A DNA stretch of 64,000 bases, taken from Haloferax litoreum (lineage in GTDB: Archaea > Halobacteriota > Halobacteria > Halobacteriales > Haloferacaceae). Positions 31,176-51,805 of the stretch are shown here, one piece after another (position 1 is the stretch's first letter; each line of letters begins with the position of its first letter). Location: positions 186,001 to 250,000 of the forward strand of contig NZ_WKJO01000003.1 of assembly GCF_009674605.1 (NCBI RefSeq), in the 5' to 3' direction. The notes beneath the pieces were generated by a model. It had not been told where the DNA came from and did not search any database. It was given only the letters and a program-made list of their open reading frames with translations. Made by a program: the position numbers and the translations under genes.

Positions 31176-31825
31176 CGGCGTCGATTCGTCGGGTCTGCAC
31201 GTCGTCGCGTTCCAATCGCACTTTCCCTGCGTTGCACTACGGCCAATAGACGCATCTCCCCGTCTACCGCCTCGTCTTCGAACACATCTATGTAATACTA
31301 TAATATCTGATATATCTCTGTTCATATCTACACATCGATAACTATCGGCAGAGTATCGTTGGCATCACCAAGTACCCATCTATTCTTGCAATATCTCTAG
31401 AGCTGGCAGGTGATACTCGTACGACCGATTCTGTGGTCGTCTATCACCCGGCCGGTTCTCTCTCCCACCCGCACTCGCACTTCCAACCCCTCAAAGTGAC
31501 GAATACTGCACTGTAACCTACGAAACTCCCGGGCGTACGTTGTGAGAAATTATCTGAAATCTGTCTATGACTGGAAGATGATTGTACGGGCAGTAACCGG
31601 CGACTCGAGAGGCACTGCCCAACACCGCCACTGCAGACCGGAGTTGTCGTTCTCGAAACTGGAATCAATTACGGACGTACAAGTGTAATGGGTTGTCTGA
31701 TCCCGGGATGTCGAGTGCTAACAACAGTACCAGTGTAATGGGCTACGAGGAGTTCGTGGGGTTCGCGGCCGAGTCGTCACTCCGAGCGAAATATCGATGG
31801 TGAACGAGTGTTCGGCAGAGTAGAA
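31176..31825. other. 650-base AT-rich intergenic region
   Basis: Contains ATACTATAATATCTGATATAT-like promoter sequence (about 31295-31315) and long AT runs. No ORF here has haloarchaeal composition; a 74-codon leftward frame is basic and Ser-rich and was not accepted. Two direct repeats are listed separately. Confidence 0.45.
31677..31742. repeat. Two 16-base direct repeats exactly 50 bases apart
   Basis: GTAC(A/C)AGTGTAATGGG occurs at 31677-31692 and 31727-31742, identical but for one base. They lie downstream of the leftward IclR gene. They may be a regulator array or a remnant of a mobile or duplicated segment; nothing between them is coding. Confidence 0.6.
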
Positions 31826-32596: not shown

Positions 32597-32638
32597 GGGT
32601 ACCAATTGGGGAGGTTCGCAATAATTGTTCGTATTAAG

Positions 32639-32655
32639 TTCGGCAGTGCCGAACA
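32639..32655. promoter_or_regulatory. IclR-type palindrome upstream of the IclR gene
   Basis: GTTCGGC and GCCGAAC are perfect 7-base arms around AGT, in the 70-base gap between the MmgE/PrpD gene and the IclR gene. Its place upstream of the IclR start fits an autoregulatory operator. Confidence 0.6.
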
Positions 32656-32666
32656 AGTGTTCGTTC

Positions 32667-35394: not shown

Positions 35395-35395
35395 C

Positions 35396-36100
35396 TCACA
35401 CCCCGAGGTACGCCTCGACGACGCTGTCGTCTTCGAGGAGTTCGGAACCGCTCGCAGTCATGCTGATTCGGCCGTTCTCCATCACGTACCCGCGGTCGGC
35501 CACTTGGAGCGTCTGTTGGACGTTCTGTTCGACCATGAGGACGGTCACGCCTTGTTCGTGAATCTCTTCGACCACGTCGAACACTTCTTGGACGAGTTGT
35601 GGTGCGAGTCCAATCGACGGTTCGTCGAGGATGAGGAGGTCCGGTTCGCCCATCAGGGCGCGTGCGAGCGTCAGCATCTGCTGTTCGCCACCGGACATCG
35701 TCCCGGCGCGTTGCTTCTTGCGCTCTTCGAGTCGCGGGAACAGGTCGAGCATCTCCGCGAGGTTCTCCTCGCGGTTCGCGATTGCCTCGTCGGTCTGTGC
35801 ACCGAGGAGGAGGTTGTCTATCACGCTCATGTTGGTGAACAGGTCCCGGTTCTCGGGGACCTGCACGATACCTCGCTCGACGATTTCGTGCGATGGTTTG
35901 GTGTGAATCTCCTCACCGCGGTAGGTGATACGTCCGTGACTCGGCGAGAGGATGCCACATATCGTCCGCATCGTCGTGGTCTTCCCCGCGCCGTTCGACC
36001 CGATGAGCGCGACGATTTCTCCCTCGTCGACGTGCATGTCCACGCCGTGGAGCACTTCTATCTCGTCGTACCCCGCGCGGACGCCTTCGAGTTCAAGCAT
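35396..36100 (-). CDS. Branched-chain-type ABC importer, second ATPase (LivF-like)
   Basis: 234 residues of the LivF group. Walker A is GSNGAGKTT (about 34-42), the signature is TMSGGEQQML and Walker B LLILDEPSIGLAPQ, the phrase typical of LivF rather than LivG. It pairs with the LivG-like ATPase encoded upstream (8-base overlap). In the island this importer probably brings in the carboxylate or amide substrate rather than leucine. Substrate unproved. Confidence 0.93.
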   Translation of the reverse strand: MLELEGVRAGYDEIEVLHGVDMHVDEGEIVALIGSNGAGKTTTMRTICGILSPSHGRITYRGEEIHTKPSHEIVERGIVQVPENRDLFTNMSVIDNLLLGAQTDEAIANREENLAEMLDLFPRLEERKKQRAGTMSGGEQQMLTLARALMGEPDLLILDEPSIGLAPQLVQEVFDVVEEIHEQGVTVLMVEQNVQQTLQVADRGYVMENGRISMTASGSELLEDDSVVEAYLGV

Positions 36101-36857
36101 CGGCGTCGAACCCTCCGATGTACGCCTCGATGACGCGGTCGTCTTCGACGACTTCGCTTGGTTTGCCGAAGGCGATTCCTTGGCCCTGGTCGAGGACCTT
36201 CACGTAGTCTGAGATGTTCATGATGGCTTTCATGTCGTGTTCGATGATGAGGAGGCTCGTCCCCCGTTCCCGTAACTGCCGAAAGAGGTCGAGCATCTGA
36301 TTCGACTCCTGTGGCGTCAATCCCGCCATAATCTCGTCGAGGAGCAAAATCTTCGGCCGCGTCGAGATAGCGCGCGCGAGTTCGAGGCGCTTCTGGGCCC
36401 CGACCGTGAGTTCGCCCGCTTCTTCTTCGACACGGTCGGCGAGGCCGACGAATTCGAGGTTTTCGAGCGCGATTTCGCGTGCTTCGCGCCGCCGTCGGGT
36501 GTGGATGTGCGCGCCGACCATCGCGTTTTCGACGACGGTGAGTTCCTCCAGTGGCCGCGTAATCTGGAACGTCCGCGCGAGTCCCGCCCGTGCAACCTTG
36601 TGTGCGGGAAGGCCGGAGATGACGTTGCCTTCTAACCTGACCGTCCCCGACGTCGGCGGGAACGCTCCGCTGATACAGTTGAACAGCGTCGTCTTACCGG
36701 CACCGTTGGGGCCGATGAGCCCGATAATCTCGCCACTGTTGACCGTCATGTCTACGTCTTGGAGTGCTTGCAGACCCGCGAAGCGCTTTCCGACGCCTTC
36801 GACGGTCAAGAGAGTCTCGCCGTCTCGTTCGGTCGATTGGTGGTCCATATTCGTCAT
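36093..36857 (-). CDS. Branched-chain-type ABC importer, first ATPase (LivG-like)
   Basis: 254 residues. Walker A GPNGAGKTTLFNCISG, a LivG-type insertion with ARAGLARTFQITRPLEEL, the signature ELTVGAQKRLELARA, where LTVGAQ departs slightly from the usual LSGGQ, and Walker B ILLLDEIMAGLTPQE. The C-terminal VIEAYIGG is typical of LivG. It overlaps the next gene by 8 bases and its ATG overlaps the permease stop (ATGA). Energises uptake together with the LivF-like protein. Confidence 0.93.
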   Translation of the reverse strand: MTNMDHQSTERDGETLLTVEGVGKRFAGLQALQDVDMTVNSGEIIGLIGPNGAGKTTLFNCISGAFPPTSGTVRLEGNVISGLPAHKVARAGLARTFQITRPLEELTVVENAMVGAHIHTRRRREAREIALENLEFVGLADRVEEEAGELTVGAQKRLELARAISTRPKILLLDEIMAGLTPQESNQMLDLFRQLRERGTSLLIIEHDMKAIMNISDYVKVLDQGQGIAFGKPSEVVEDDRVIEAYIGGFDADA

Positions 36858-37933
36858 TGTTCGCTCACCTCCGTGTCACCGCGAACGCGGTTCCAGAGGG
36901 CGCGGGCCCGACTCGGCCAACTCACTACACCGCGTGGGGAGTAGATGACGATAGCGACGAGGAACGCACCGTAGATGATGCGGTCGAGTCCGTTGATGTC
37001 GGTGAACGTCGTCCGTGCAATCTCACTGACTGGCGTGACGATGAACGACCCGACGATGGGTCCGATGAGCGTCCCCGGTCCACCGACGACGGCGGGGAGG
37101 AGTATCTCGACGTTCTTGAACAGCGCAAACACGGTGTCTGGTCGGATGGTGTTGAAGTACATCGACCAGTACGCGCCACCGAGCGCGGTGAAGAACGCAC
37201 TCACTGCGACGCCGATGAGTTTGTACCTGAACGACGGCACGCCGACGCTCGCGGCGGCCCGTTCGTCCTCGCGGATGGCGAAGAAGTACAGACCGACCCA
37301 GGAGTTCTTGATGGCCCACGAGATGACCGTCACGACGAGGAGGAACCCCACGATGACGTAGTAGTACGGGAGGTCGCTCTGGAACTGGAACGCAGCGAGG
37401 CCGTACTCGGCACCGTAGTCACGGGGGAACGGTTTGAAGTAGCCGTTAGCCCCGCGCAGTTCCGACATGTTCGTGACGACGAACCGCAGCAGTTCGGCGA
37501 ACGCGAGCGTCGCCAGCGCGAAGTAGTGTCCCTTGAGATTGAAGCGGAACGTGAGGGCACCGATGAGGAGGCCGTACAGTCCGGCGATGATGCCCGCGAC
37601 GAGCATCCCAATCCAGGGATTGATGGCGAAGTCGACGAGGAGTTTCTGCGTCGCGTACGCGCCGATTCCGAAGAACGCCGCGTGACCGAACGAGAACTGC
37701 CCAGTGTACCCGGACATGATGTTCCACGACTGGGCGGTGTAGGCGTAGATGACGGTCAAGATGAGCACTTTCAGGCTCAAGGTGGCCGCGAGTTCCATCC
37801 CGGCCACGTCGATTTCGATGATGAACGGGAGCGCGGCGAGGAGCGCGAAGAGAACGACTCCCTTCACGAGTGGTGCGAACCGCTGGTCGTCGAACGTCTG
37901 GTAACTCTCACGAACGGAGTCGAGGGTGCTCAT
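36854..37933 (-). CDS. Branched-chain-type ABC importer, permease LivM-like
   Basis: 359 residues with about nine hydrophobic segments. LivM features: QSWNIMSGYTGQFSFGHAAFFGIGAY near the N-terminus, and ERAAASVGVPSFRYKLIGVAVSAFFTALGG near the middle (the EAA-like cytoplasmic loop). A short charged C-terminal tail follows. Its start overlaps the LivH-like stop by four bases. With LivH-like protein it forms the membrane channel. Confidence 0.92.
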   Translation of the reverse strand: MSTLDSVRESYQTFDDQRFAPLVKGVVLFALLAALPFIIEIDVAGMELAATLSLKVLILTVIYAYTAQSWNIMSGYTGQFSFGHAAFFGIGAYATQKLLVDFAINPWIGMLVAGIIAGLYGLLIGALTFRFNLKGHYFALATLAFAELLRFVVTNMSELRGANGYFKPFPRDYGAEYGLAAFQFQSDLPYYYVIVGFLLVVTVISWAIKNSWVGLYFFAIREDERAAASVGVPSFRYKLIGVAVSAFFTALGGAYWSMYFNTIRPDTVFALFKNVEILLPAVVGGPGTLIGPIVGSFIVTPVSEIARTTFTDINGLDRIIYGAFLVAIVIYSPRGVVSWPSRARALWNRVRGDTEVSEQ

Positions 37934-38895
37934 GCGTTCGCACCTCCGAAGAGACCCTCAGGTTTCACCAGCAGTGTTCCGATGAACAAGAGGAAGATGA
38001 GCACCTGTGAGGTCGTTCCCGGGAGGTAGTACCCTCCGAACACCTGAATCATGCCGACGATGAGTCCACCGACGAACGCCCCGGGGAACGACCCGAGACC
38101 GCCGAGGATGACGATGACGAAGGCGTTGATGAGGTACGTCTCACCGGTGAACGGGTCGAACCGCTGGAAGAGTGCGATGGACCCGCCGGCCACACCCGCG
38201 AGTGCTGCGCCGATACCGAAGGTGAGGTAGTTGATTTGCGGGACGTTGATGCCGACGTAGCGGGCACCGTCGCGGTTGTCCGCCGTGCCGCGAATCTTGC
38301 GACCGAGGTCGGTCCGGTTCAAGAACGCGCGGACGCCGAGCATCGTGCCCAGGGCGATGAGGAGGGCGTAGAACTGGCCGAGCGGGATGAACACGCCACC
38401 GACCTGCACGGACCCGAGCGAGAGTTCGACTTGCTGTGGGTCCGGCGTGAAGATAATCTCGATGGCGGATTGGATTATCAGCAACACGCCGAGGGTGGCG
38501 ATGAGTTGGTTCTGTTGGGGTGCCTCGATGATTGGTTCGACCGTCAAGACGTGGACGCCGATACCCAAGACGAACAAGACGAGTGCCGCGATGGGGATGC
38601 CGACGAACGGGCTGATTCCGACTGTGGTCGAGACCAACCAGACCGTGTACATCCCGACGACGAGGAACACGCCGTGGGCGAAGTTGATGACGTCCATGAC
38701 GCCGAATATCATCGTCAGACCCAGTGCCGTGAGTGCGTACACGCCTCCGAGGAGGAGGCCGAACGCGAGCAACTGGAGGAGAACCGGCTCCATGTTGGCG
38801 ACGTCGGTCAGGAACTGTGCAAACGGATCGGTGAATCGGCCGAGACCACCACCTTGCAGTGGGAGTGGTGCGACCGATGTGACTAGGTGTCGCAT
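37930..38895 (-). CDS. Branched-chain-type ABC importer, permease LivH-like
   Basis: 321 residues from MRHLVTSVAPLPLQGG; a start at MEPVLLQLLAFG (residue 35) is possible and would fit the usual LivH length better. LivH features: LTMIFGVMDVINFAHGVFLVVGMY, and the EAA loop around RKIRGTADNRDGARYVGINV followed by ALAGVAGGSIALFQRFDPF. The gap of 85 bases to the binding-protein gene upstream contains a TGGCA/TGCCA pair and an A-rich run on the coding strand, probably tuning expression. Membrane channel of the importer. Confidence 0.9.
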   Translation of the reverse strand: MRHLVTSVAPLPLQGGGLGRFTDPFAQFLTDVANMEPVLLQLLAFGLLLGGVYALTALGLTMIFGVMDVINFAHGVFLVVGMYTVWLVSTTVGISPFVGIPIAALVLFVLGIGVHVLTVEPIIEAPQQNQLIATLGVLLIIQSAIEIIFTPDPQQVELSLGSVQVGGVFIPLGQFYALLIALGTMLGVRAFLNRTDLGRKIRGTADNRDGARYVGINVPQINYLTFGIGAALAGVAGGSIALFQRFDPFTGETYLINAFVIVILGGLGSFPGAFVGGLIVGMIQVFGGYYLPGTTSQVLIFLLFIGTLLVKPEGLFGGANA

Positions 38896-38980
38896 GCGGT
38901 GTCTACGCTCGGGGATTGTTGGCAACTGCCATAAAAGGTAACCATCTTTTTTGCGGCGATTCGTTGACGTGTACGCGAAA

Positions 38981-40303
38981 TTAGACCTGTGGGTCGGCCT
39001 CCGCGTACTCGTCGGGGTAGACGACCTTGACCGAGAGGTCCTGGACCTGATTGACCGGTCCGAGGGCGTTGACGTTCTCACCCTCCTCGTCGAACTCGAT
39101 GGTGCCCATCGCGGAGATGTGGTCGTCGTACTGGAGGTTCTTCAACGCCTCGTTGATGTCGTCGGGGTCGTCGCTACCCGCTTCTTCGACCGCTTGGATG
39201 ATGACCTCTGCCGAAGTGTAGGCCATCCCGACGGACGCGGAGAACTCCTGGTCGTAGTTATCGGTGAACTGCGACCGAACTTCTGCGGTCTTGTCGATGG
39301 TCGGGTTCAGCGCGTAGTTGTTGTCCATGACGCCGTTGGCGAACTCGCCGATGTCGGCGATAGCATCGTCGTCGGTGAACGTCGCCGACGCGGAGGCAGT
39401 CAGGTGCGGTGGACGGTAGTCCTGGTCTTGCAGGGCCTGTGCGAGGAGCACACCGCCGGCGACGTACGTCGTGGCGATGATGGTGTCGGGGTCGGCGCTG
39501 CGGAGTTTCGAGACTTGCGTGTTGGCGTTCGACGCGCCGAACTCGATAGCCGTCTCCTCGACGATTTCGACGTTCTGCTGCGGGAGGAACTCCCGGAGAC
39601 TGTCGCGAATCGCCTGCCCGTAACTGTTGTTGATGTAGAACAGACCCGCCGTGTCGATGGTGCCGCCACCGTCACGGATGACCTGTGGAACGAGGTCCGC
39701 GTAGTCGCTCGCCAGACGGCGCGCCGGTGGTTGTGGGCGGTAGACGTAGTTGAACCCACGACCCTGAATGATGTTGTCCGCCGCCGCGATGGAGACGACG
39801 AACGGAACACCCTGTCGCTCGGCGACCTGTGTCGCCGCCGTCGTCACCGGCGAGGAGTAACACCCGGTGAGGACGTGTGCCCCGTCGCTGAGCAGTTCTT
39901 CGCTCACTTGACCGCCGAGTTCCTGTTTCCCTTGGTTGTCGCCCTCGATGACTTTCACCTGTGCGCCACCGAGTGACTCGATGCCACCTTCCTCGTTCTT
40001 CCGCATCGCGGCGAGTTTGATGGCGTTGCTCATCCCGACGCCCGTGGCGGCGAGGCCACCGGACAACGGGTGGTTCGAACCGATGATAATCTCCTCGACC
40101 GATTGTTCGGGAGTTCCGGTCGTCGTCCCTTGGTCTCCTCCGGACCCACCGGAGTCGCCGCCGGAGTCACCGCCCGAACCGCCGCCGCTGCCGCCAGCGT
40201 CGTCGCTCGTACATCCAGCTAGTGTCAGTGCCGCGACGCTCGCGCCCGTTGCTTTGAGGAAGCGTCGCCTGTTGCTCGTCGAAGACTTGAGAGTCTTACC
40301 CAT
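38981..40303 (-). CDS. Branched-chain-type ABC importer, substrate-binding lipoprotein
   Basis: 440 residues. Tat signal NRRRFLKATG, lipobox LAGC with Cys31, then a Gly/Ser/Asp linker typical of haloarchaeal surface lipoproteins. The binding domain is of the LivJ/periplasmic-binding type 1 family: IIIGSNHPLSGGLAATGVGM, VTTAATQVAERQGVPFVVS, PDTIIATTYVAGG. It is the specificity component of the importer and the first gene of its unit, with a TATA box 29 bases upstream. The ligand cannot be inferred from sequence; the adjacent degradation genes suggest an amide or carboxylic acid. Confidence 0.92.
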   Translation of the reverse strand: MGKTLKSSTSNRRRFLKATGASVAALTLAGCTSDDAGGSGGGSGGDSGGDSGGSGGDQGTTTGTPEQSVEEIIIGSNHPLSGGLAATGVGMSNAIKLAAMRKNEEGGIESLGGAQVKVIEGDNQGKQELGGQVSEELLSDGAHVLTGCYSSPVTTAATQVAERQGVPFVVSIAAADNIIQGRGFNYVYRPQPPARRLASDYADLVPQVIRDGGGTIDTAGLFYINNSYGQAIRDSLREFLPQQNVEIVEETAIEFGASNANTQVSKLRSADPDTIIATTYVAGGVLLAQALQDQDYRPPHLTASASATFTDDDAIADIGEFANGVMDNNYALNPTIDKTAEVRSQFTDNYDQEFSASVGMAYTSAEVIIQAVEEAGSDDPDDINEALKNLQYDDHISAMGTIEFDEEGENVNALGPVNQVQDLSVKVVYPDEYAEADPQV

Positions 40304-41312: not shown

Positions 41313-42746
41313 CTATTCGAACGACTCTCTCGCGTGGATGCCGGCGAGACGGCCGTACCCGAGCGCAGTCGTCAACCCGTTCCCAGAGAGATAGCCGCCT
41401 GCACCATGTCCGCTGATGCCGCAGGCCGTGCCGCCACCGGCGTAGAGATTTGAGACCACACTTCCGTCGGTTCGGAGGACACGCGCGTGTTTGTCGACGA
41501 CGAGGCCACCCTGCGTGTGGAAGAGTGACCCGGTGACTTTGGTCCCGTAGAACGGCGCTTCGAGCGGGTGGGTTCCGTCGACGCGGCCGACTTCGTCGGG
41601 TTCGCCTGCCGACGCGGCCTCGTTGTACGCGGCGATGGTCTCTGCGGCACGCTCCCCGTCGGCCCCGAGTCTGTCTGCGAGTTCCGCGACGGAGTCTGCG
41701 CTGTGGTAGGTGCCGTGTTCGACTGCTTCGTCGAAGTCGTCGAACTCGCCCTGTAACTTCTCGAAGATGCGTTCGTCGAACAGTTGGACCGCCTGTCCGC
41801 CGGGTTGCTTCAGCACGTCGATGGCGAACTCGCTGTAGCCCGACGACTCGTCGCCGAAGCGTTCGCCGTCTTCGTTGACGAGGACGCCGCCGTTCATCGT
41901 GACAGCGTAGGTAGAGAGCATCCCCGTCTGACTCGCGACAGTCGCGTGTCCCTGATAGGCGTCCATGCACGCGAGTTCGCCGCCGAGTTCCGCGCCGAAG
42001 CGGACGCCGTCGCCGGTGTTTCCATCGGACCCGAAGTACAGCGCTCGTTCGACGTCTTCCTCACAGTACTCGGTAATCATCTCGTGGTTCCCCGCGAACC
42101 CGTCCGTCGCGAGGATGACCTTCTCTGCCTCGATTGCCTCGTCGTGGGTGAGGCCAGCGACGACGCCGCGGACAGCACCGTCTTCGGCGACGAGTTTCGT
42201 GACGGGTGCGTTCGTCAGCAGTTCGATGTTCGGTGCGTCTTCGACCCGTTCGACGAGTTCTGCGACCAGATTCTCACCGTTTCTCCCGTCGGGGGCGTGC
42301 ATCCGAAACTCGGAGTGTTTGGGATATTTGAAGTCGTCGACGAGGTGAAGCGTGACGTCCCAGTCGTCGACCAGCCAGTGGATGAGGTTCGCGCTCTCCT
42401 CGCAGAGGTACGTGACGCGTTCTTCGTCGGCTTGATAGTCGTTCTTCTCCAGAATATCCCGTGCCATGTCGGCGGGCGTCTCTTCGATACCCGCCTCCCG
42501 CTGGAGTCGCGTCCCCGCCGCGGGAATCATCCCCGTCGAAAGCGAGGTATTGCCACCGCAGTGTGGTGCCTTCTCTAAGACCGTTACGCGAATCTCCGGA
42601 TTCTCGCTGGCCGCCAGCGCGGCGACTAACCCTGTTCCACCGCCGCCAGCGACGAGAACGTCAGTGTCGATGTCCCACTCGATGTCCGACACCGAGACAA
42701 CTTCCGCGACGCTATCGCTGGGTGTACGCGCTGCTTGCTCGTCCAT
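41313..42746 (-). CDS. FAD-dependent oxidoreductase, fumarate-reductase/KstD type
   Basis: 477 residues. The FAD loop is VLVAGGGGTGLVAALAAS (34-39 Gly region), with the second FAD segment EKAPHCGGNTSLSTG and a C-terminal GGLVVDKHARV and GISGHGAGGYLSGNGLTTALGYGRLAG, the FAD_binding_2 pattern shared by fumarate reductase, 3-ketosteroid dehydrogenase and tricarballylate dehydrogenase. It should introduce or remove a double bond next to a carbonyl or carboxylate. Reads opposite to the SDR and converges with it. The exact substrate is open. Confidence 0.9.
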   Translation of the reverse strand: MDEQAARTPSDSVAEVVSVSDIEWDIDTDVLVAGGGGTGLVAALAASENPEIRVTVLEKAPHCGGNTSLSTGMIPAAGTRLQREAGIEETPADMARDILEKNDYQADEERVTYLCEESANLIHWLVDDWDVTLHLVDDFKYPKHSEFRMHAPDGRNGENLVAELVERVEDAPNIELLTNAPVTKLVAEDGAVRGVVAGLTHDEAIEAEKVILATDGFAGNHEMITEYCEEDVERALYFGSDGNTGDGVRFGAELGGELACMDAYQGHATVASQTGMLSTYAVTMNGGVLVNEDGERFGDESSGYSEFAIDVLKQPGGQAVQLFDERIFEKLQGEFDDFDEAVEHGTYHSADSVAELADRLGADGERAAETIAAYNEAASAGEPDEVGRVDGTHPLEAPFYGTKVTGSLFHTQGGLVVDKHARVLRTDGSVVSNLYAGGGTACGISGHGAGGYLSGNGLTTALGYGRLAGIHARESFE

Positions 42747-42886
42747 GGACCCTGCTAGTCAGACTCTCTCGTAAAACTACCGCCAGCGGTTGGACTTCGC
42801 TCGCGTACGCGACTGAAACACGTGGCGAGCAGCGTGTCTGTCGAAATGAGGTGAAAAACTATGGTGGTTGGGAACACGCTGAAACT

Positions 42887-43309
42887 ATGGACTCACCACG
42901 GGTCATCGTCGAAGAGTTCTTCGACCGGATGGAAGACGACAGGCGAAAGACCGTCGGCGACCTGTTCGCCGAGGACGCGGTCATCACACTCCCCGGCGCG
43001 ACGTTCGAGGGACCGACCGCGGCGTACGATTTCCTCGACTTCCTCGCGCCACGATACGAGTGGGCGGCGAAGGAGTTCGACCGCTGGATAGAAGCGGGCG
43101 ACACCGTCGTCAGTATCGGCCGACTCTACGGCGTCGACAACGACGGTGTCGAGTTCGAAGACGTGCGGTACGTCGACGTGTACGAAGTCCGCCGTGGACT
43201 CATCGAACGACTCGACATCTGGAACGACTTGGCAGCAGATGGTGTCGTCCCTATCGAGGCACCCGACCCCACCACGGAAGGGGTAGCGGAACCGCGGGAC
43301 GCTGAATGA
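42887..43309 (+). CDS. SnoaL/NTF2-like protein
   Basis: 140 residues. The sequence VIVEEFFDRMEDDRRKTVGDLFAEDAVITLP and GDTVVSIGRLYGVDNDG, with VRYVDVYEVRRGLIERLDIW, follows the SnoaL-like/NTF2 cone fold used by small isomerases, hydratases and polyketide cyclases. There is no obvious catalytic set. The gene begins a plus-strand series and overlaps the luciferase-like gene by four bases, so it is probably an accessory enzyme or isomerase in the pathway. TATA-like AAAAACTAT lies 29 bases upstream. Confidence 0.8.
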   Translation: MDSPRVIVEEFFDRMEDDRRKTVGDLFAEDAVITLPGATFEGPTAAYDFLDFLAPRYEWAAKEFDRWIEAGDTVVSIGRLYGVDNDGVEFEDVRYVDVYEVRRGLIERLDIWNDLAADGVVPIEAPDPTTEGVAEPRDAE

Positions 43310-44283
43310 GCGAGCGGATTGGCGTCCTCTTCGCACTCCGAGACGACCCCTCGCTGGTCGTCCGCGCGGAAGAACTGGGGTACGAGTCGGCGTGGGCGGC
43401 GGAAGGACAGGGAAAGACCGCATTCGGAAAACTGGAGCGCTGGGCCGTCCACACCGACGAAATCGGTCTCGCGACGGGCATCGTCAACGTGTTCTCGCGC
43501 ACGCCAGCGACGCTCGCGGCGGCGACGGCGACGCTTGACGCGCACTCGAACGGTCGCGCGATTCTCGGCCTCGGTGTCGCCCACCCCGGCGTCGTCGAGA
43601 CGTTCCACGGCGTCCCGTTCGAGCGTCCACTCTCCCGGATGCACGAGTATGTCGAACTCGTCCGGCGGTATCTCCGGGGTGACGCAGACTCGTTCGACGG
43701 CGAGTTCTTCACGCCCGAGCGAACGAGTTTCTGGGATGCCTTCGAACCAGTCCGCGACGAGGTACCTATCTACAACGGGGCACTCGGTCCCTCGAACGTC
43801 AGGCTCACCGGACAGGTGGCCGACGGATGGCTTCCCAACCTCTATCCGCGCCCTCAGTTCGAGGAGGCGATGGGATGGCTCGAAACGGGTGCTGAACGCG
43901 CCGGACGCGACGTCTCCGACGTCGACGTGGCGATGTACGTCCTCACGTCGGTCCACGAGGACCCAGACGAGGCGCACCGTTCTGCCGCCGAACACGTCGC
44001 GTACTACCTGCGCGATGTCCCCGGATACTACGACCGGGCGGCCAAGGAGGCCGGATTCGCCGACGAAGTCGAAGCCGTTCGAGCCGCACCGACGACTGAG
44101 GCCGGCGCAAAGCAGATTTCAGCCGACTTCCTCTCACCCCTCGGCATCGTCGGGACGCCGGCCGACGCCCGGGAGCGACTCGACGAACTGCGTGAGATGG
44201 GTGTCGACCTCCCCATCGTCCGGGCACCCGGCGGCGTGGAGAGAGACTGGGTCGCGCGAATGCTGGAGGTGTTCGCCCCGTAA
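43306..44283 (+). CDS. Luciferase-like flavin/F420-dependent oxidoreductase
   Basis: 325 residues of the LLM superfamily: ERIGVLFALRDDPSLVVRAEELGYESAWAAEGQG, EIGLATGIVNVFSRTPATLAAA, the GRAILGLGVAHPGVV strand, LTGQVADGWLP, and the long C-terminal part with HRSAAEHVAYYL. These enzymes hydroxylate or dehydrogenate substrates with FMN or F420. Sequence alone does not separate FMN from F420 use. Starts within the previous stop, so expressed with the SnoaL-like gene. Confidence 0.9.
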   Translation: MSERIGVLFALRDDPSLVVRAEELGYESAWAAEGQGKTAFGKLERWAVHTDEIGLATGIVNVFSRTPATLAAATATLDAHSNGRAILGLGVAHPGVVETFHGVPFERPLSRMHEYVELVRRYLRGDADSFDGEFFTPERTSFWDAFEPVRDEVPIYNGALGPSNVRLTGQVADGWLPNLYPRPQFEEAMGWLETGAERAGRDVSDVDVAMYVLTSVHEDPDEAHRSAAEHVAYYLRDVPGYYDRAAKEAGFADEVEAVRAAPTTEAGAKQISADFLSPLGIVGTPADARERLDELREMGVDLPIVRAPGGVERDWVARMLEVFAP

Positions 44284-44349
44284 CATGTGCACGCGTATGT
44301 GTGCCGTACTTTTATGCTGGATGCCATCGCATCTCAGTCGAAGCGAGTC

Positions 44350-45009
44350 ATGACAGACCGTATCTGGGAGGACCTGCTATCCGAACAGGATAAACAGGTC
44401 ATCACGAAGGCTGGTTACGACAAGGAGGGCGCGTCGTCGTGGGAGTCGCGCGGCATGGGCGAGAACCCGATGGTTCTCGTCATCGACATGCAGCGACTCA
44501 TCGTCGGCGAGAACGTCCCCATCCTCGACGCCGTCGAGGAGTACCGCACCGCGATGGGCGACATCGCGTGGAACGCAATCGAGTACATCGACCCGTTTCT
44601 CGACTTCGCGCGCGAGGAAGGACTCCCGGTGACGTACACCCGTGTCGTCCCGTCGAGTTACGACGACCCGGACCACCCGGACCTCGACATCGTCGACCCC
44701 GTCGCACCTGAAGAGGGTGATACCGTCGTCGACAAGTCCTACGCCTCGGCGTTCTACGGGACCGACTTACTCTCTCGACTCGTCCGCGGTGACCACGACT
44801 CGGTCATCATCGTCGGCAACTCCACGAGCGGATGTGTGAGGGCGACGGCAGTCGACGCGAAGCAAAACGGATTCAGCGTCATCTTGCCACAGGAGTGTAT
44901 CTTCGACCGAATCGAGGCATCCCACAAGATTGGTCTCCTCGACCTGTGGATGAAGTACGCCGAGGTGCTGGAGACCGAAGAAGTTCAGTCGTGGGTCGAG
45001 ACGCTATGA
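44350..45009 (+). CDS. Isochorismatase-family amidohydrolase
   Basis: 219 residues from MTDRIWEDLLSEQ. The cysteine-hydrolase triad is present: Asp46 in VLVIDMQ, Lys129 in VVDKSYASAF, Cys162 in NSTSGCVRATAVDA. The N-terminal extension and the TSGCVRATA segment resemble N-carbamoylsarcosine amidase and maleamate amidase. It likely hydrolyses an amide or carbamoyl group, releasing ammonia. Its stop overlaps the start of the dihydropyrimidinase-type gene (ATGA), suggesting consecutive steps on an opened cyclic amide. Confidence 0.9.
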   Translation: MTDRIWEDLLSEQDKQVITKAGYDKEGASSWESRGMGENPMVLVIDMQRLIVGENVPILDAVEEYRTAMGDIAWNAIEYIDPFLDFAREEGLPVTYTRVVPSSYDDPDHPDLDIVDPVAPEEGDTVVDKSYASAFYGTDLLSRLVRGDHDSVIIVGNSTSGCVRATAVDAKQNGFSVILPQECIFDRIEASHKIGLLDLWMKYAEVLETEEVQSWVETL

Positions 45010-46406
45010 CGTACGACCTCGTCATCTCGAACGGGACTGTCGTCACACCCGAACACGGGACCTTCGAGGCCGACGTTGCGGCCGATGGGGAGACCATCGC
45101 CGCAATCGCCGCACCGGGGACGCTCTCGGGTGAGACAGAAATCGACGCGACTGGGAAGTACGTCCTCCCCGGCGCAATCGACCCGCACACCCACCACGGC
45201 ATCTACCGTGGACTGGAAGCGGACGCCGAGTCCGAGTCCAAGTCCGACCTCGTCGGCGGCGTGACCACGATTGGCAACTACTTCCGTCGTGCTGGCGCGT
45301 ACGCCGACATCATGCCGGGGTACTTCGACGAGGCCGAACCGAACTACTACCACGATTACTTCTTCTCGCTCGGCTTGCTCTCGATGGAGCACGTCGAAGA
45401 GATTCCGACCATCATCGACGAGTTCGGTATCACGACGTTCAAGTGGTACATGAACTACAAGTATTCCGCACGGGAGAAGTTCGGCGTCGACTGCGACATG
45501 AAAGACGACTTCGGCGACGCATTCGTCCAGAAACTCGCCGAACAGGACGTGCCGACCACGCTCGGCTATCACTCCGAGAACGTCGAGATAACGAACGCAC
45601 TCGCCGGCGGCAACGTCTATCTGGAATCCGAATCCGACGACACCGGTGCCGACGCGGACGAAGGCTACGAAGTGATGGTCGAGGAGTTCCCCGGATACGC
45701 AGAGACCCAGAGTATGGTCGCGGGGTCGTCGCTCGCGAAAGTCCACGGGTACGACGACCGATTCTACGCGGTCCACATCTCCGCCGGACAGACCGCAGAC
45801 GAACTCGCCGCGCTTCACGACGCCGGGTACGAGACGTGGGGCGAGACCTGTATCCACTACCTCACACTCACGACCGACGAGTGCGACGAACGGATGAAGG
45901 TCAATCCCCCAGTTCGGTCGAAAGAGGACCAAGAGACACTCTGGAAACGCCTCGCCGACGGAACTATCTCGACTATCGGCACCGACCACTGTGCCAACCT
46001 CGCCGAGAACAAGTTCGGTGACGGCATCCGCGATAGTCTCCTCGGGTTCCCCTCGACACCGGTGATGTTGCCGCTCATCCTCTCCGAGGGTGTCAACGAA
46101 GGCCGCATCTCACTGGAACGCGCCGTGGAGGTCACGAGTACGAACGCCGCGAAGGCGTTCAACCTCTATCCCAAGAAGGGGACGGTTCGCGTCGGAAGCG
46201 ACGCCGACCTCGTCGTCGTCGACCTCGACGAGACGAAGACGGTGACGCCCGAACTCCTGCACAGCGTCAGCGGGTACTCGCCCTACGAGGGCCGCGACGT
46301 GACGGGGTGGCCGACACAGACCGTCGTGAAAGGCCAACTCGCCTACGACGACGGCGACATCGTCGGCACGAAGGGACACGGGACGCACGTCGACCGGCCA
46401 GTCTGA
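45006..46406 (+). CDS. Dihydropyrimidinase/hydantoinase-family cyclic amidohydrolase
   Basis: 466 residues. The binuclear-metal set is complete: His61 and His63 in DPHTHHGIY, the carboxylated lysine Lys146 in TFKWYMNY, His189 in GYHSEN, a later His in YAVHISAGQT and Asp in TIGTDHCAN. The C-terminal HSVSGYSPYEGRDVTGWP is typical of dihydropyrimidinase/D-hydantoinase. It opens a cyclic amide or imide ring. Starts at the ATG overlapping the previous stop. The substrate ring (hydantoin, dihydropyrimidine or other lactam) is not determined. Confidence 0.9.
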   Translation: MTYDLVISNGTVVTPEHGTFEADVAADGETIAAIAAPGTLSGETEIDATGKYVLPGAIDPHTHHGIYRGLEADAESESKSDLVGGVTTIGNYFRRAGAYADIMPGYFDEAEPNYYHDYFFSLGLLSMEHVEEIPTIIDEFGITTFKWYMNYKYSAREKFGVDCDMKDDFGDAFVQKLAEQDVPTTLGYHSENVEITNALAGGNVYLESESDDTGADADEGYEVMVEEFPGYAETQSMVAGSSLAKVHGYDDRFYAVHISAGQTADELAALHDAGYETWGETCIHYLTLTTDECDERMKVNPPVRSKEDQETLWKRLADGTISTIGTDHCANLAENKFGDGIRDSLLGFPSTPVMLPLILSEGVNEGRISLERAVEVTSTNAAKAFNLYPKKGTVRVGSDADLVVVDLDETKTVTPELLHSVSGYSPYEGRDVTGWPTQTVVKGQLAYDDGDIVGTKGHGTHVDRPV

Positions 46407-46493: not shown

Positions 46494-47699
46494 ATGACAG
46501 ACGACACGAACGGACCACTCGACGGCCTCGTCGTCCTCGAAGCAGGGTCGATGATATCTGGCCCGACTGTCGGCCGCTTCATGGCCGACTTCGGGGCGAC
46601 GGTCATCAAAATCGAACACCCGAAGTTCGGCGACCACATCCGCCGATTCGGCCCGCAGAAAGACGGCGTCGGCCTCTGGCACAAGTACCTCTCGCGGAAC
46701 AAGCAATCGATAACTCTGAACATCTCCACCGAGGAGGGTGCAGCGGTGTTCGAGGACCTCGTCAGCGAGGCGGACCTCCTCATCGAGAACTTCCGACCGG
46801 GCACCCTCGAACGCTGGGGAGTCGGGTGGGAGGACCTCTCCGAGGTGAACTCCGACCTCGTCATGCTCCGCATGTCCGGGTTCGGCCAGACGGGACCGTA
46901 CTCCGAGCGCCCCGGGTTCGGAACGCTCGCGGAGGCGATGTCCGGATTCGCCTACCTGAACGGCTTTCCAGACTCGCCACCGCTCCTCCCACCGACGGGA
47001 CTGGCAGACAACATCGCGGCGTTGTTCTCGACGTTCGCGGTGATGTTCGCACTCTACCACCGCGACGTCCACGGGGGCGGCGGCCAGTACATCGACACGA
47101 GTCTCATCGAACCAATCTTCGGCTTACTCGGCCCGCAACCACTCAGGTACGACCAACTCGGTGAGGTAGAAGCCCGGTCGGGTAATCGCTCGACGTCCTC
47201 TGCCCCGCGGAACGTCTACCGAACTGGCGACGACCGTTGGGTCGCAATCTCCGCCAGTGCGCAACCCCTCGCAGAACGGACGTTCGAGGCCATCGGTCGT
47301 CCCGAACTGAAAGACGACCCACGCTTCGAGACCAACGAAGACCGACTGGAACACGTCGACGAACTCGACCACATCATCCAAGACTGGATGGACGACCACA
47401 CCCGCGAGGAAATCCTCACTGCGTTCGAAGAAGCAGACGCGACGCTCGCGCCGGTCTACAACGTCGAAGACATCCTGAACGACGAACACTACCAGGCCCG
47501 TGAGGCGTTCTTGACCATCGACGACCCGGACCTCGGCGACGCCGTCGTCCAGAACGTCTTCCCCAAGTTCTCGAAGACGCCGGGGAGCGTCGAGTACCTC
47601 GGCCCCAGTCTCGGTGAACACAACGAGACGGTGTTCCGGGAACGACTCGGCTACGACGACGAATTCCTCGCCGAACTCGAAACGGACGGTGTCATATGA
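46494..47699 (+). CDS. CaiB/BaiF-type (class III) CoA-transferase
   Basis: 401 residues. Features of class III CoA-transferases: LVVLEAGSMISGPTVGRFMADFG, AVIKIEHP, the nucleophilic aspartate Asp172 in LADNIAALF, LLIENFRPGTLERWG and a C-terminal RERLGYDDEFLAEL. It moves CoA between acids, activating the hydroxy or unsaturated acid formed in the pathway. Its stop overlaps the lyase start by four bases, strong support for sequential CoA activation and cleavage. Donor CoA and acceptor unknown. Confidence 0.93.
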   Translation: MTDDTNGPLDGLVVLEAGSMISGPTVGRFMADFGATVIKIEHPKFGDHIRRFGPQKDGVGLWHKYLSRNKQSITLNISTEEGAAVFEDLVSEADLLIENFRPGTLERWGVGWEDLSEVNSDLVMLRMSGFGQTGPYSERPGFGTLAEAMSGFAYLNGFPDSPPLLPPTGLADNIAALFSTFAVMFALYHRDVHGGGGQYIDTSLIEPIFGLLGPQPLRYDQLGEVEARSGNRSTSSAPRNVYRTGDDRWVAISASAQPLAERTFEAIGRPELKDDPRFETNEDRLEHVDELDHIIQDWMDDHTREEILTAFEEADATLAPVYNVEDILNDEHYQAREAFLTIDDPDLGDAVVQNVFPKFSKTPGSVEYLGPSLGEHNETVFRERLGYDDEFLAELETDGVI

Positions 47700-48655
47700 A
47701 CTTACTCACAGAACTCCCAGACCAGATTCACGTCGTCGAGATGTTGCCCCGCGACGGGTTCCAGCGACTCGACGAGTTCGTCCCGACCGACGAGAAAGTC
47801 GAGATAATCGACACGCTCTCGGAGACTGGTGTCGACGAAATCGAAATCTCGTCGTTCACGCACCCGAAGGCCGTCCCGACGCTTCGAGACGCCGACGAGG
47901 TGGCGAAGAAAATCACCCGCAACGACGACGTCACCTACCGCGCCCTCGTTCCGAACCTCGTCGGCATGGAACGCGCCGTCGAGGCCGAGGTAGACAAAGT
48001 GAACGCCCTCGTCACGGTGAGCGAGACGTACACGGAGAACAACCAGAACCGGACGCGCGAAGCGGTCCTCGCCGAGATGGACGACATCGTCGAACTCGCC
48101 CACGACCACGGCATCGAAGTCGAAGCGGGCATGGGGACGAGTTTCTACTGTCCGTACGAGGGCCAGATAGACGCAGAAGAGACGCTCGCAGTCGTCGACA
48201 GTGTCGTCGACTCCGGCGTCGACGAAGTGACGCTCGCGACGACGATGGGTCTCGCGAACCCCGTAGAGATTACTGAGCGATTCAGCGCCGCGTTCGAGGC
48301 CCACCCGGACCTCGACATGGGGTTACACCTCCACGACACGAACGGGATGAGTCTCGCGAACACCCTCGCCGCGATGGCAGTCGGCGTCGACCGCTTCGAC
48401 GCGTCCGTCTGCGGCCTCGGCGGCGGCGTCGTCCTCCCTGAGGGGATGTCCGGCGTCGGAAACACGCCGACAGAAGACCTCGTCCAGATGCTCACACGGA
48501 TGGGCGTCGACCACGGCGTCGATTTCGACCGCATCGAAGCCGCCGCCCACGACGTGTCCGACCGCCTCGGACTCGGGGCGACGAGTCACGTCCTCATGGG
48601 TGGGACGGTCGAGCGTGTGCTCGAAACCGTCGCCGCCGACAAACAGGAGAACTGA
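47696..48655 (+). CDS. HMG-CoA-lyase-like lyase lacking the catalytic cysteine
   Basis: 319 residues of the HMG-CoA lyase (DRE-TIM) family. Conserved: Arg19-Asp20 in LPRDGFQR, KAVPTLRDADEVAKK, and the metal histidines His211/His213 in GLHLHDTNGMSLAN. In true HMG-CoA lyases GLGGCPY holds the catalytic cysteine; here the position reads GLGGGVV (Gly244) with extra residues and a different Cys239 five positions earlier. The family cleaves 3-hydroxyacyl-CoA esters to acetyl-CoA (or acyl-CoA) and a keto acid. After the CoA-transferase, cleavage of a citramalyl-CoA-like ester to pyruvate is the plausible role. Reaction is inferred. Confidence 0.85.
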   Translation: MNLLTELPDQIHVVEMLPRDGFQRLDEFVPTDEKVEIIDTLSETGVDEIEISSFTHPKAVPTLRDADEVAKKITRNDDVTYRALVPNLVGMERAVEAEVDKVNALVTVSETYTENNQNRTREAVLAEMDDIVELAHDHGIEVEAGMGTSFYCPYEGQIDAEETLAVVDSVVDSGVDEVTLATTMGLANPVEITERFSAAFEAHPDLDMGLHLHDTNGMSLANTLAAMAVGVDRFDASVCGLGGGVVLPEGMSGVGNTPTEDLVQMLTRMGVDHGVDFDRIEAAAHDVSDRLGLGATSHVLMGGTVERVLETVAADKQEN

Positions 48656-48659
48656 ACAC

Positions 48660-49973
48660 ATGACCGGAAAGACACTCGCAGAGAAACTCCTCTCGGAGAA
48701 GTCTGGGACCGACGCCCGCGCCGGCGACTACGTCGAAGCAGAAATCGACGTGGCGATGGCGCACGACATCACGGGGCCACTCGCGTTCCAGACGTTCCAC
48801 GAGGTGGCGGGCGAGGACGCCGACCTGTTCGCGCCCGACCGTACCATCTTCACAATCGACCACCACGCCCCCGCCGACGGGGTACAGGCCGCGAACAATC
48901 ACAACGCCGTCCGTGACTTCGCCGCCAAACACGGCGCGAACCAGTTCGACGTCGGTGACGGCATCTGTCACGCCGTTCTCGTCGAAGAGGGATTCGTCTC
49001 GCCCGGTGACCTCGTCATCGGGGCGGACTCCCACTCGACGACGTACGGCGGTCTGGGCGCGTTCGGAACCGGCGTCGGGTCCACCGACCTCGGCACCGCG
49101 TTGGCGTCCGGCGAACTCTGGTTCCGCGTCCCGCAGACGATGCGCTTCGAAGTCGACGGCGACCTGCAAGACGGCGTCTACGCGAAAGACCTGATACTGC
49201 GGTTCATCGGCGACGTTGGCTTCGACGGATGTACTTACAAGGCCGCGGAGTACGCCGGGAGCACCATCGAATCGCTCCCTATCCACGAACGACTCGTCTT
49301 GTCGAACATGGCCATCGAGATGGGCGGCAAGACGGGTCTCGTCGCGCCCGACGACCGAACTGCCGCGTATCTCGAACGCCAGACGGGGAACGAAATCGAC
49401 CTCGACGACGCGTTCCGCTCAGACGACGACGCCGACTACGAGTCGGTCCACACCTACGATGCCGCCGAGTTGGCACCGCAGGTGTCCAAGCCGTCGAACC
49501 CGGAGAACGCCGTCGACGTGACTGACGTCGAAGGGACCGAAATCGACCAACTGTTCGTCGGAACGTGTACTAACGGCCGCTACGAGGATATCAAAATCGT
49601 CGCCGACATCCTCGAAGGCGAGACGCTCGCCCCGAACGTTCGGATGGTCGTCGTCCCGGCGTCGAAATCGGTCTACAGGCACATGCTAAACACGGGCGTC
49701 TTCCAGACACTCACCGATGCCGGTGCAGTCATCCAGAACGCTGGGTGTGGACCCTGTGCGGGGTACCACCAGGGCGTACTCGGAGACGGTGACGTGTGTC
49801 TCGCCACGGCGAATCGGAACTTCCCCGGACGCGAAGGCTCGATGGAGTCGAACGTGTACCTCGCGAGTCCGGCAACCGTCGGTGCGAGCGCACTCTACGG
49901 TGAGATTACGGACCCGAGGAACATTCAGACGAATCGCTACGACGACACCATCTTCGCGGAGGTGCTGCCATGA
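48660..49973 (+). CDS. LeuC/aconitase-type hydratase, large subunit
   Basis: 437 residues of the 3-isopropylmalate dehydratase/homoaconitase large-subunit group. Cluster cysteines are visible in VGTCTNGR and AGCGPCAG, giving the 4Fe-4S ligands. Other family pieces: GADSHSTTYGGLGAFGTGVG, FTIDHHAPAD, CLATANRNFPGREGS. It adds or removes water on a substituted maleate or malate skeleton with the small subunit encoded next (4-base overlap). In this island it is unlikely to be leucine synthesis; a catabolic hydratase such as dimethylmaleate or citraconate hydratase fits better, by context. Confidence 0.92.
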   Translation: MTGKTLAEKLLSEKSGTDARAGDYVEAEIDVAMAHDITGPLAFQTFHEVAGEDADLFAPDRTIFTIDHHAPADGVQAANNHNAVRDFAAKHGANQFDVGDGICHAVLVEEGFVSPGDLVIGADSHSTTYGGLGAFGTGVGSTDLGTALASGELWFRVPQTMRFEVDGDLQDGVYAKDLILRFIGDVGFDGCTYKAAEYAGSTIESLPIHERLVLSNMAIEMGGKTGLVAPDDRTAAYLERQTGNEIDLDDAFRSDDDADYESVHTYDAAELAPQVSKPSNPENAVDVTDVEGTEIDQLFVGTCTNGRYEDIKIVADILEGETLAPNVRMVVVPASKSVYRHMLNTGVFQTLTDAGAVIQNAGCGPCAGYHQGVLGDGDVCLATANRNFPGREGSMESNVYLASPATVGASALYGEITDPRNIQTNRYDDTIFAEVLP

Positions 49974-50497
49974 CGGACTCGAATACGACCTCCGGGGGGA
50001 CGAACCCGAGCGACCCGGCGCGCGCGTGGGTCTTCGGCGACAACATCGACACCGACCAGATAACGCCGTCGCGCTTCATCGTCTCGTCCGACCCCGACGA
50101 ACTCGCACAACACGCGTTCGAAGACCTGCGACCGGAGTTCTCCGACTCTGTCGAACCGGGCGACTTCGTCGTCGCGGGCGAGAACTTCGGAAGCGGGTCG
50201 TCGCGCGAACACTCGCCGCTCTCACTCGTCGGTGCGGGCGTCTCGGGCGTCGTCGCCCAGTCGTTCGCGCGTATCTTCTTCCGAAACGCCATCAATCTCG
50301 GCTTGCCGGTCCTCATCTGCCCGGGCGCGGATGCCATCGACGACGGCGACGAGATTCACATGGACTTGGACACAGGCATCGTCGTCAACCACACGAAAGA
50401 CGAACAGTACGACGCGGAGGCACTCCCGGAGTTCCTCCAGTCGCTGGTCGAACAAGGAGGATTGAAAGCGTACACGAAAGCGAAACTCGGTCGTTGA
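49970..50497 (+). CDS. LeuD/aconitase-type hydratase, small subunit
   Basis: 175 residues. The swivelling-domain motif is ENFGSGSSREHSPLSLVGAG, with GDNIDTDQITPSRF at the start and FFRNAINLGLPVL later. Serines of the GSGSSRE loop bind substrate carboxylates. It pairs with the large subunit through an ATGA overlap and completes the catalytic enzyme. The series ends here; the next gene is convergent. Confidence 0.92.
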   Translation: MTDSNTTSGGTNPSDPARAWVFGDNIDTDQITPSRFIVSSDPDELAQHAFEDLRPEFSDSVEPGDFVVAGENFGSGSSREHSPLSLVGAGVSGVVAQSFARIFFRNAINLGLPVLICPGADAIDDGDEIHMDLDTGIVVNHTKDEQYDAEALPEFLQSLVEQGGLKAYTKAKLGR

Positions 50498-50590: not shown

Positions 50591-51805
50591 TTACCGGACG
50601 CGCGCATCCCAGTAGAGGAGTCCAGCGGCGACGACGAGGCACACAGCGAGACCGGCAAACGCCACGACGTAACCGAGGTACGTGGCGACGATGCCGACGT
50701 AGGCAGGACCGACGGCGTTCGCACCGAGGAAGAACGCCCGTGCGGCACCGAGGTCGGCACCCCTGTCGTCGTCCGGTGCGTTGTCGAAGATGATGGCGTC
50801 TGCGAGGGGGAACTCCATCTTGTAGCCGATTGCGAGGGCCACGACCGAGACGTAGATGAACGCACGCGCGTCGACGAACGAGAGCACTGCCAGCGCACCA
50901 GCGGCGACGAGGAGACCGACGACGGCAATCGACTCTCTTCGGAACCGGTCGCTCAGGCCGCCAGCGACGGGCTTTATGGTAATCCCGACTGCGAACACGA
51001 CGGCGAAGGTTGCGCTCGCGAGTTGTTGGTCGAATCCCTTCGCCTCGATAAGGTACGTCGGAAAGAAGTTGATGAATCCCCCGACCATGAAGTAAAACAG
51101 GCCGAACGCGACGAGTGTTCGGCGTTGCGCGGGACTGGCGAGCAGTCGCCGAATGGTCCCGGAGGCGTCGAGTCTCGGGGACCCGACTTCGTACCCTTCT
51201 GTGGACCAGAGGGCAAAGAGGACGGTGAGTCCCCCGAGAACGACAGCGACCGGGAGAAACGGCGTGCGCCACGTCGCGTATGTGAGTGCGAGGATGGCGA
51301 GGCCAGAGGCGAGGAGACCACCGAGGTCTGTACCCGCAGCGTAGAGGCCGAGTGCGCGCCCGCGACGTTCGACGAACAGGTCTGAGATGAGTGCACGCGA
51401 CGGAATCGCGAAGAATCCCTTTCCGAGTCCGGTGACGACGGCGGCGACGACGAATCCAGCGAGTCCTCCCGCGACACCGAACGTCGCGAATCCGACGACG
51501 AGGAGGGCGAGACCGGGGACGATGAGTGTCGCGCGCGTCCACCGGTCGGAGTATTCACCACCGGGATATTGGGTAATCGCGTAGACCCCCTGAAACAGTG
51601 CGAGGGCGATTCCTGCGGTTGCTTCGGTAATCTGTAAATCCGCGATAATCGTCGGGAGAAGTGGTGACAAGAGGAACCGGCCCGCCTGAAGAACCGCCCA
51701 CGCGAGCGAGACGGTGAGTAGCATCCGACCCCGATAGCCTGCGAGGACGTGTTGGTCGGACGCCGTCGTTTGGTTCACACGTCTCGTATGACGACCTGCT
51801 ACCAA
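50591..51805 (-). CDS. MFS transporter at the end of the catabolic island
   Basis: 404 residues, about twelve hydrophobic segments, with MFS motif A-like YSDRWTRATLIV and the second-half counterpart GGLSDRFRRES. It would take up or export the pathway's substrate, product or an organic acid. Convergent with LeuD-like gene. The ATG at 51805 is used; an internal GTG (MNQTTASDQHV after residue 9) is an equally reasonable start. Confidence 0.85.
   Translation of the reverse strand: MVAGRHTRRVNQTTASDQHVLAGYRGRMLLTVSLAWAVLQAGRFLLSPLLPTIIADLQITEATAGIALALFQGVYAITQYPGGEYSDRWTRATLIVPGLALLVVGFATFGVAGGLAGFVVAAVVTGLGKGFFAIPSRALISDLFVERRGRALGLYAAGTDLGGLLASGLAILALTYATWRTPFLPVAVVLGGLTVLFALWSTEGYEVGSPRLDASGTIRRLLASPAQRRTLVAFGLFYFMVGGFINFFPTYLIEAKGFDQQLASATFAVVFAVGITIKPVAGGLSDRFRRESIAVVGLLVAAGALAVLSFVDARAFIYVSVVALAIGYKMEFPLADAIIFDNAPDDDRGADLGAARAFFLGANAVGPAYVGIVATYLGYVVAFAGLAVCLVVAAGLLYWDARVR

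Follow-up and report, generated by a model that had tools for sequence, protein, structure and literature searches.

A haloarchaeal HMG-CoA-lyase-like protein without the G-loop cysteine or the catalytic tyrosine, encoded between a CoA-transferase and a LeuCD-type hydratase in Haloferax litoreum

The closest described systems include the HMG-CoA lyases (EC 4.1.3.4) of human, B. subtilis, and Brucella (2cw6, 1ydo, and 1ydn). Residues given as critical in the human enzyme include Arg41, Glu72, Tyr167, and Cys266, and those given for the metal site include Asp42, His233, His235, and Asn275 (PMC6941031). A structure from Acinetobacter baumannii (6nds) is titled HMG-CoA lyase and was solved with CoA and 3-methylmalate; it keeps the GGCP motif and has Thr in the column of Tyr167. 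Related DRE-TIM synthases, such as LeuA and homocitrate synthase, have no cysteine of the G-loop type. In Chloroflexus, an HMGL-family R-citramalyl-CoA lyase is reportedly paired with a succinyl-CoA:D-citramalate CoA-transferase, and this pair is, to our knowledge, the closest published analogue of the locus described here. A search of the open-licence literature turned up no publication on HMGL-like proteins of haloarchaea.

The gene considered here lies in a window of 64,000 nucleotides (the whole stretch of DNA that was analyzed) from Haloferax litoreum, contig NZ_WKJO01000003.1 of assembly GCF_009674605.1, positions 186,001 to 250,000. Its surroundings, in coordinates of the window, are as follows.

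31826..34037, minus strand: IclR regulator and second MmgE/PrpD gene
34066..40303, minus strand: branched-chain-type ABC transporter genes and first MmgE/PrpD gene, divergent (four ORFs there tested)
41313..42746, minus strand: FAD_binding_2 flavoprotein (fumarate/urocanate reductase-like), divergent
42884..43309 (start approximate), plus strand: SnoaL/NTF2-like small protein (PF12680)
43306..44283, plus strand: luciferase-like (LLM class, possibly F420-dependent) oxidoreductase (PF00296; TIGR04024 below cut-off)
44344..45009, plus strand: isochorismatase-family amidohydrolase (Pfam)
45006..46406, plus strand: hydantoinase/dihydropyrimidinase-like cyclic amidohydrolase (NCBIfam; start set by analogy)
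46494..47699, plus strand: family III (CaiB/BaiF) CoA-transferase (PF02515, 390 bits)
47696..48655, plus strand: HMGL-like DRE-TIM lyase lacking the G-loop Cys (Pfam, NCBIfam, alignments, model)
48660..49973, plus strand: LeuC/aconitase-type hydratase large subunit (Pfam, NCBIfam)
49970..50497, plus strand: LeuD/DmdB-type hydratase small subunit, loop FIVS (TIGR02087, 187.6 bits, cut-off 109)
50591..51805, minus strand: MFS transporter (Pfam)

The plus-strand order is thus SnoaL-like, luciferase-like, isochorismatase-family, hydantoinase-like, CoA-transferase, lyase, LeuC-like, and LeuD-like, with a 4-base overlap between the end of the CoA-transferase gene and the start of the lyase gene. The divergent stretch at 34066..40303 probably shares the regulon of this operon; relatives of its ABC transporter and MmgE/PrpD genes adjoin the lyase in many loci. 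The IclR and second MmgE/PrpD genes are found near the lyase in Natrialbaceae-type loci, and the MFS transporter adjoins the operon in Haloferax-type loci. Near the regulon, a 395-aa ORF on the minus strand (30135-31325) has zero Pfam matches and may not be a gene.

The lyase frame is open throughout and encodes 319 amino acids. The protein matches PF00682 (168 bits) and passes the cut-off of 246 bits, with 279.1, for NF004283 (PRK05692), the NCBIfam subfamily model named 'hydroxymethylglutaryl-CoA lyase'; the same model also accepts a Cys-less relative from Aminobacter (L057, below). Much of the HMG-CoA lyase active site is recognizable. The Arg-Asp pair and HxH metal site noticed in the first-pass annotation are indeed present, as RDG at 19-21 and HLH from 211, and the metal ligands of the human enzyme correspond to D20, H211, H213, and N256 (the last in a GN motif at 255-256), while Arg41 and Glu72 correspond to R19 and E50. 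All six are kept in 44/44 distinct haloarchaeal sequences, a set drawn from 78 overlapping loci scoring above 400 bits. The protein thus shares with the solved HMG-CoA lyases the fold, RDG, HxH, Asn, Glu, and the position of Cys152, but differs from them in lacking Tyr167 and the G-loop Cys, in a loop longer by three residues, in an invariant C239, and in its operon.

The column of Cys266 falls on Gly244 or, depending on gap placement, on Leu247, the residue preceding the conserved Pro248, and none of the 44 sequences has Cys at either, so the reported absence of the GGCP cysteine holds under both alignments. The reported loop expansion is likewise borne out: the stretch between GG and GN has 11 residues, versus 8 in aligned GGCP enzymes (GLGGCP...GN). 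Residues 239-256 read CGLGGGVVLPEGMSGVGN, and CGLGGGVVLPEGM begins at residue 239. C239 and C152 are the only cysteines of the protein, the latter aligning with a Cys of ordinary HMG-CoA lyases. The nearby Cys239 to which the first-pass annotation drew attention does not take over the catalytic column in sequence alignments; it lies five residues before it, in a column that holds Ala or Gly in ordinary enzymes. As read from the alignments, there is also a second loss, which that annotation overlooked: the column of the catalytic Tyr167 is Gly145, so that the tyrosine expected of an HMG-CoA lyase is missing. This column is Gly in 35/35 distinct haloarchaeal sequences, and again in the nine haloarchaeal rows of a second alignment.

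Chance or error in a single genome can be set aside, given the agreement of the 44 sequences, which have a median pairwise identity of 72% (down to 61%). E15, R19, D20, E50, C152, H211, H213, C239, G244, and N256 are invariant among them. Invariance alone is weak evidence for a role of C239, because 123 of the 319 positions never vary. Among columns with at least three Cys, however, 152 and 239 are the only ones that stay constant; 80, 208, and 229 all vary.

A second AlphaFold2 model, built from 54 sequences (mean pLDDT 90.6, pTM 0.89), replaced a first built from 12 (mean pLDDT 70.2, loop below 50). It has the HMGL TIM-barrel fold, with TM of 0.84-0.89 and Z of 40-44 against solved HMG-CoA lyases. 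The best solved match in both fold and sequence is 6nds (TM 0.88; Z 43.9, rmsd 2.1 over 298 residues), followed by the B. subtilis and human HMG-CoA lyases and then by LeuA and homocitrate synthases (Z about 28-32). Strand 8 spans 233-237 in the model, and C239 sits in the following turn, at the catalytic mouth of the barrel. Confidence is high for the block 231-240 (pLDDT 95) and lower for the G-loop block 241-250 (pLDDT 64), where the modeled loop leans on enzymes unlike this one, because the 42 added rows are all viral and keep the loop Cys.

As judged from alignments, the partner enzymes of the operon keep their presumed catalytic residues; here, motifs of the isochorismatase-family, hydantoinase-like, LeuC-like, and CoA-transferase proteins are those we take to be catalytic. 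D172 of the CoA-transferase, its putative catalytic Asp, is kept in 37/37 distinct relatives, and the protein falls below all NCBIfam equivalog cut-offs. Three Cys of the LeuC-like protein, presumably Fe-S ligands, are kept in 41/41, and its best solved relative is an isopropylmalate/citramalate isomerase (4kp1). A separate LeuC/LeuD pair adjoins a LeuA-type gene on the chromosome of the same genome, and the operon pair is therefore an extra copy. Metal-site residues of the hydantoinase-like hydrolase are kept in 38/38. The isochorismatase-family hydrolase keeps Lys131 and Cys164 in 36/36 and Asp48 in 35/36, and resembles 4l07 and 3ot4/3uao, which we take to be maleamate amidases.

This gene set recurs. 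Gene context was sampled in 27 haloarchaeal genome stretches, taken from 27 of the 40 lyase-bearing genomes. The CoA-transferase lies directly upstream of the lyase in every one (27/27), a partnership also ascribed to the R-citramalyl-CoA lyase type. LeuC and LeuD occur with the lyase in 25 stretches, and both hydrolases do so in 23; L095, truncated by the end of its contig, and L098 lack both LeuCD and the hydrolases and still have the CoA-transferase-lyase pair, and L083 and L102 are the other stretches without the hydrolases. Loci L006-L021, partly from the same species, have all of CoA-transferase, LeuC, LeuD, and both hydrolases (16/16). In Natrialbaceae-type loci the same genes occur in a different arrangement, which points to a functional set rather than to descent alone. 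Leucine-degradation genes are absent among the typed neighbours of the lyase, both in the window and in the sampled loci. Haloferax massiliensis has, on a 63-kb contig (NZ_CSTE01000007.1), two whole copies of the operon in opposite orientation, about 27 kb apart (L012 and L013). In L095 and L098, from two genomes of the same family, the CoA-transferase accompanies a Cys-less lyase with a GVGGGVVLPDELEG loop; LeuCD was not found nearby in L098, and the lyase of these two loci is perhaps a paralogue for another substrate.

Relatives outside the haloarchaea help to separate the two losses. Of 16 bacterial plasmid relatives, 15 have GGCP (L057 is the exception), as do 12/12 relatives from Armatimonadota, the bacterial chromosomes surveyed, and 80/80 from viral contigs. 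Tyr occupies the 167 column in 80/80, 5/12, and 2/16 of the viral, Armatimonadota, and plasmid relatives, respectively. The 16 plasmid loci were picked from the top of match lists, not at random; a family III CoA-transferase lies next to the lyase gene in ten and is fused to it in one, and Tyr is found in none of these 11, versus two of the five others. This distribution links absence of the Tyr with a substrate supplied by a CoA-transferase. Because the Cys is retained in the bacterial members linked to CoA-transferase and LeuCD, its loss is a further step. CoA-transferase, lyase, and LeuCD occur together also in Cupriavidus, Geobacillus, and Roseomonas, whose paralogues are likewise non-Tyr but differ from the haloarchaeal lyase in keeping the Cys in all three; gene context therefore fails to explain the Cys loss. 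In Roseomonas mucosa (plasmid locus L065, 6968-11214) lyase and CoA-transferase form a single 768-aa ORF, and the adjacent LeuD and LeuC are fused as well. Similarly, 6nds resembles the haloarchaeal lyase in its non-Tyr residue but differs in keeping GGCP and in its shorter loop.

Among the bacterial relatives read, a single one is Cys-less, L057 of Aminobacter sp. MSH1 plasmid pUSP2. A tblastn search of plasmids with two 77-aa stretches pointed, by ungapped length among the matches listed, to one further candidate, Diaphorobacter L193, which has GGCP. L057 shares EMLPRDG, GGG, and the missing G-loop Cys with the haloarchaeal lyase, but is only 39% identical to it, has no adjacent LeuCD, and carries Gly in the 239 column, with a Cys two positions before that. 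Cys-less enzymes therefore do not all share C239. The nearest plasmid matches of L057 after itself are haloarchaeal, at 42%. A tree of 40 chosen rows, nine of them drawn from the 44 distinct haloarchaeal sequences, places these nine in one clade (support 100/99) with L057 as sister (93/95, not starred), on a long branch that makes its placement unsure. Most Tyr-bearing rows, including the enzyme of an Allorhizobium carboxylase cluster, stand apart, and one, L059, falls among non-Tyr rows.

Contig 2 of the H. litoreum genome offers a parallel. The CoA-transferase closest to that of the operon (49%) lies there at 203.5-206.6 kb (L212:5475-8581). It is flanked on one side by an isochorismatase-family hydrolase, preceded by HyuA/HyuB-like genes, and on the other by a LeuA-type enzyme that has a GERAGN motif. 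A further pair of CoA-transferase and LeuA-type (GERAGN) DRE-TIM enzyme at 144.2-146.6 kb (L211:6240-8603) adjoins genes that resemble, by eye, a sugar-type ABC transporter; the HyuA/HyuB and LeuA-type names on this contig were also given by eye. The sequence of amide hydrolysis, CoA transfer, and DRE-TIM enzyme thus seems to have been built at least twice in this genome from different DRE-TIM stocks, which supports the logic of the pathway. By analogy, the parallel suggests that the G-loop Cys may be dispensable in a CoA-transferase-fed slot.

Taken together, the sequence evidence leads us to favor, with somewhat better than even confidence, a functional malyl-CoA-type acyl-CoA lyase, of the HMGL family but distinct from HMG-CoA lyase. 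The first-pass annotation had suggested a changed mechanism or substrate. A changed substrate is well supported by inference, because the critical Tyr is missing too, from a column where the aligned ordinary HMG-CoA lyases have Tyr and 11/11 CoA-transferase-linked bacterial relatives do not, because the gene has a CoA-transferase on one side and a LeuCD-type hydratase on the other and is not in a leucine-degradation set, and because the closest solved structure is complexed with 3-methylmalate. The mechanistic half of that suggestion fares less well: changed proton transfer, with C239 as candidate acid, is plausible from the model. Against the malyl-CoA-type reading, 6nds keeps its Cys, and the 3-methylmalate bound there may be a mere analogue or crystallization guest. 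The substrate is most likely a C4/C5 malyl-CoA-type thioester, citramalyl-CoA or 3-methylmalyl-CoA, although malyl-CoA and dimethylmalyl-CoA are not separable from citramalyl-CoA as candidates. LeuCD-type enzymes make a C5 hydroxy-diacid of the 3-methylmalate type from citraconate in archaeal isoleucine synthesis.

A possible pathway can be sketched. The hydantoinase-like and isochorismatase-family hydrolases may supply a diacid from a cyclic amide or imide, and the LeuCD-type hydratase would add water to an unsaturated C4/C5 diacid. Hydration of citraconate to (R)-citramalate or 3-methylmalate is favored by the LeuC relative 4kp1, by 6nds, and by the LeuD/DmdB-type small subunit; maleate to malate is possible, by analogy, because of the resemblance of the isochorismatase-family hydrolase to 4l07 and 3ot4/3uao. 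The family III CoA-transferase would convert the hydroxy-diacid to its CoA ester, and the lyase would perform the last catabolic step, a retro-Claisen cleavage of (R)-citramalyl-CoA to acetyl-CoA and pyruvate or, alternatively, of 3-methylmalyl-CoA to propionyl-CoA and glyoxylate. A divalent metal on D20, H211, H213, and N256 would polarize the substrate, with R19 and E50 retained; metal site and Arg19 together most likely act on the hydroxyl and carboxylate of the malyl-CoA-type ester. The acyl-CoA enolate would then be protonated otherwise than by the Tyr167/Cys266 pair, and C239, at the barrel mouth, is the first candidate. Nicotinate- or pyrimidine-type pathways were considered for the hydrolases and give no joint role to CoA-transferase, LeuCD, and lyase; amino-acid release from a hydantoin likewise leaves these three without one.

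Within the reading of a non-HMG lyase, we give C239 about an even chance of being the proton donor; water or another side chain, as in superfamily synthases, would be nearly as likely. The corresponding alternative, a malyl-CoA-type lyase in which C239 is structural only and proton transfer falls to water or another residue, is a serious one that we hold at a little below even. The sister enzyme L057 does without a Cys at this column, C239 is not singled out among so many invariant positions, and H. litoreum itself twice pairs CoA-transferases with LeuA-type GERAGN enzymes; yet the contrast with the varying Cys columns, and the predicted position of C239 just past strand 8 at the catalytic mouth, speak for more than a structural part. 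The most ambitious version of the catalytic reading, in which a new haloarchaeal pathway for cyclic amides or imides runs through ring opening by the hydantoinase-like enzyme, hydrolysis of the half-amide, hydration by LeuCD, and CoA transfer and ends in a lyase whose catalytic Cys has been relocated to the end of strand 8, we regard as speculative and on balance unlikely.

Readings further from the malyl-CoA-type lyase fare worse. A condensing synthase, or a catalytically dead regulator of the pathway, could account for why two residues on which the parent family depends are gone, and related DRE-TIM enzymes are synthases; however, the metal and Arg/Glu positions are kept throughout the 44 sequences, the neighbours (hydrolases, transporter, hydratase) form a catabolic set, and a LeuA-like regulatory domain is absent, there being no room for one because the protein ends after the barrel domain. 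We consider this improbable. It is very unlikely, too, that the protein is still an HMG-CoA lyase, with C239 replacing the G-loop Cys by way of the longer loop. The 37% identity and Z of 43.9 to an annotated HMG-CoA lyase, the NCBIfam subfamily match, and an invariant Cys close to the loop are what such an enzyme would have, but the critical Tyr column is Gly, the typed neighbours include no leucine-degradation genes, and the context of CoA-transferase and hydratase leaves HMG-CoA without a role.

The lyase is an accessory gene rather than part of core metabolism. Of 391 Halobacteria genomes sampled, 40 carry it, in 18 of 86 genera. It is plasmid-borne in Haloferax, Halorubrum, Halomarina, and Natrinema, and is closest, at 97% identity, to a locus of Haloferax profundi. 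A gene common to archaea at large is not indicated: a phylum-level sample gave matches in 6 of 246 genomes, four of them Halobacteria, and those outside Halobacteria were two distant ones at about 32% identity. A viral origin was also considered, but the lyase query found no relatives in viral contigs, and neither did a Cys-less alignment. A bacterial HMGL-like query recovered a virus-encoded HMGL-like family from 80 IMG/VR contigs (L113-L192; 29-46% identity), all of which keep both the Tyr167 column and GGCP.

If the reading of a malyl-CoA-type lyase is correct, the 'essential' cysteine of HMG-CoA lyase would be tied to substrate or loop design and would not be a requirement of the fold. Tyr167 and Cys266 could then serve as a two-residue marker for renaming many database entries now called 'hydroxymethylglutaryl-CoA lyase'. 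The locus also points to a testable catabolic pathway in the haloarchaea, in about one in ten of the Halobacteria genomes sampled here.
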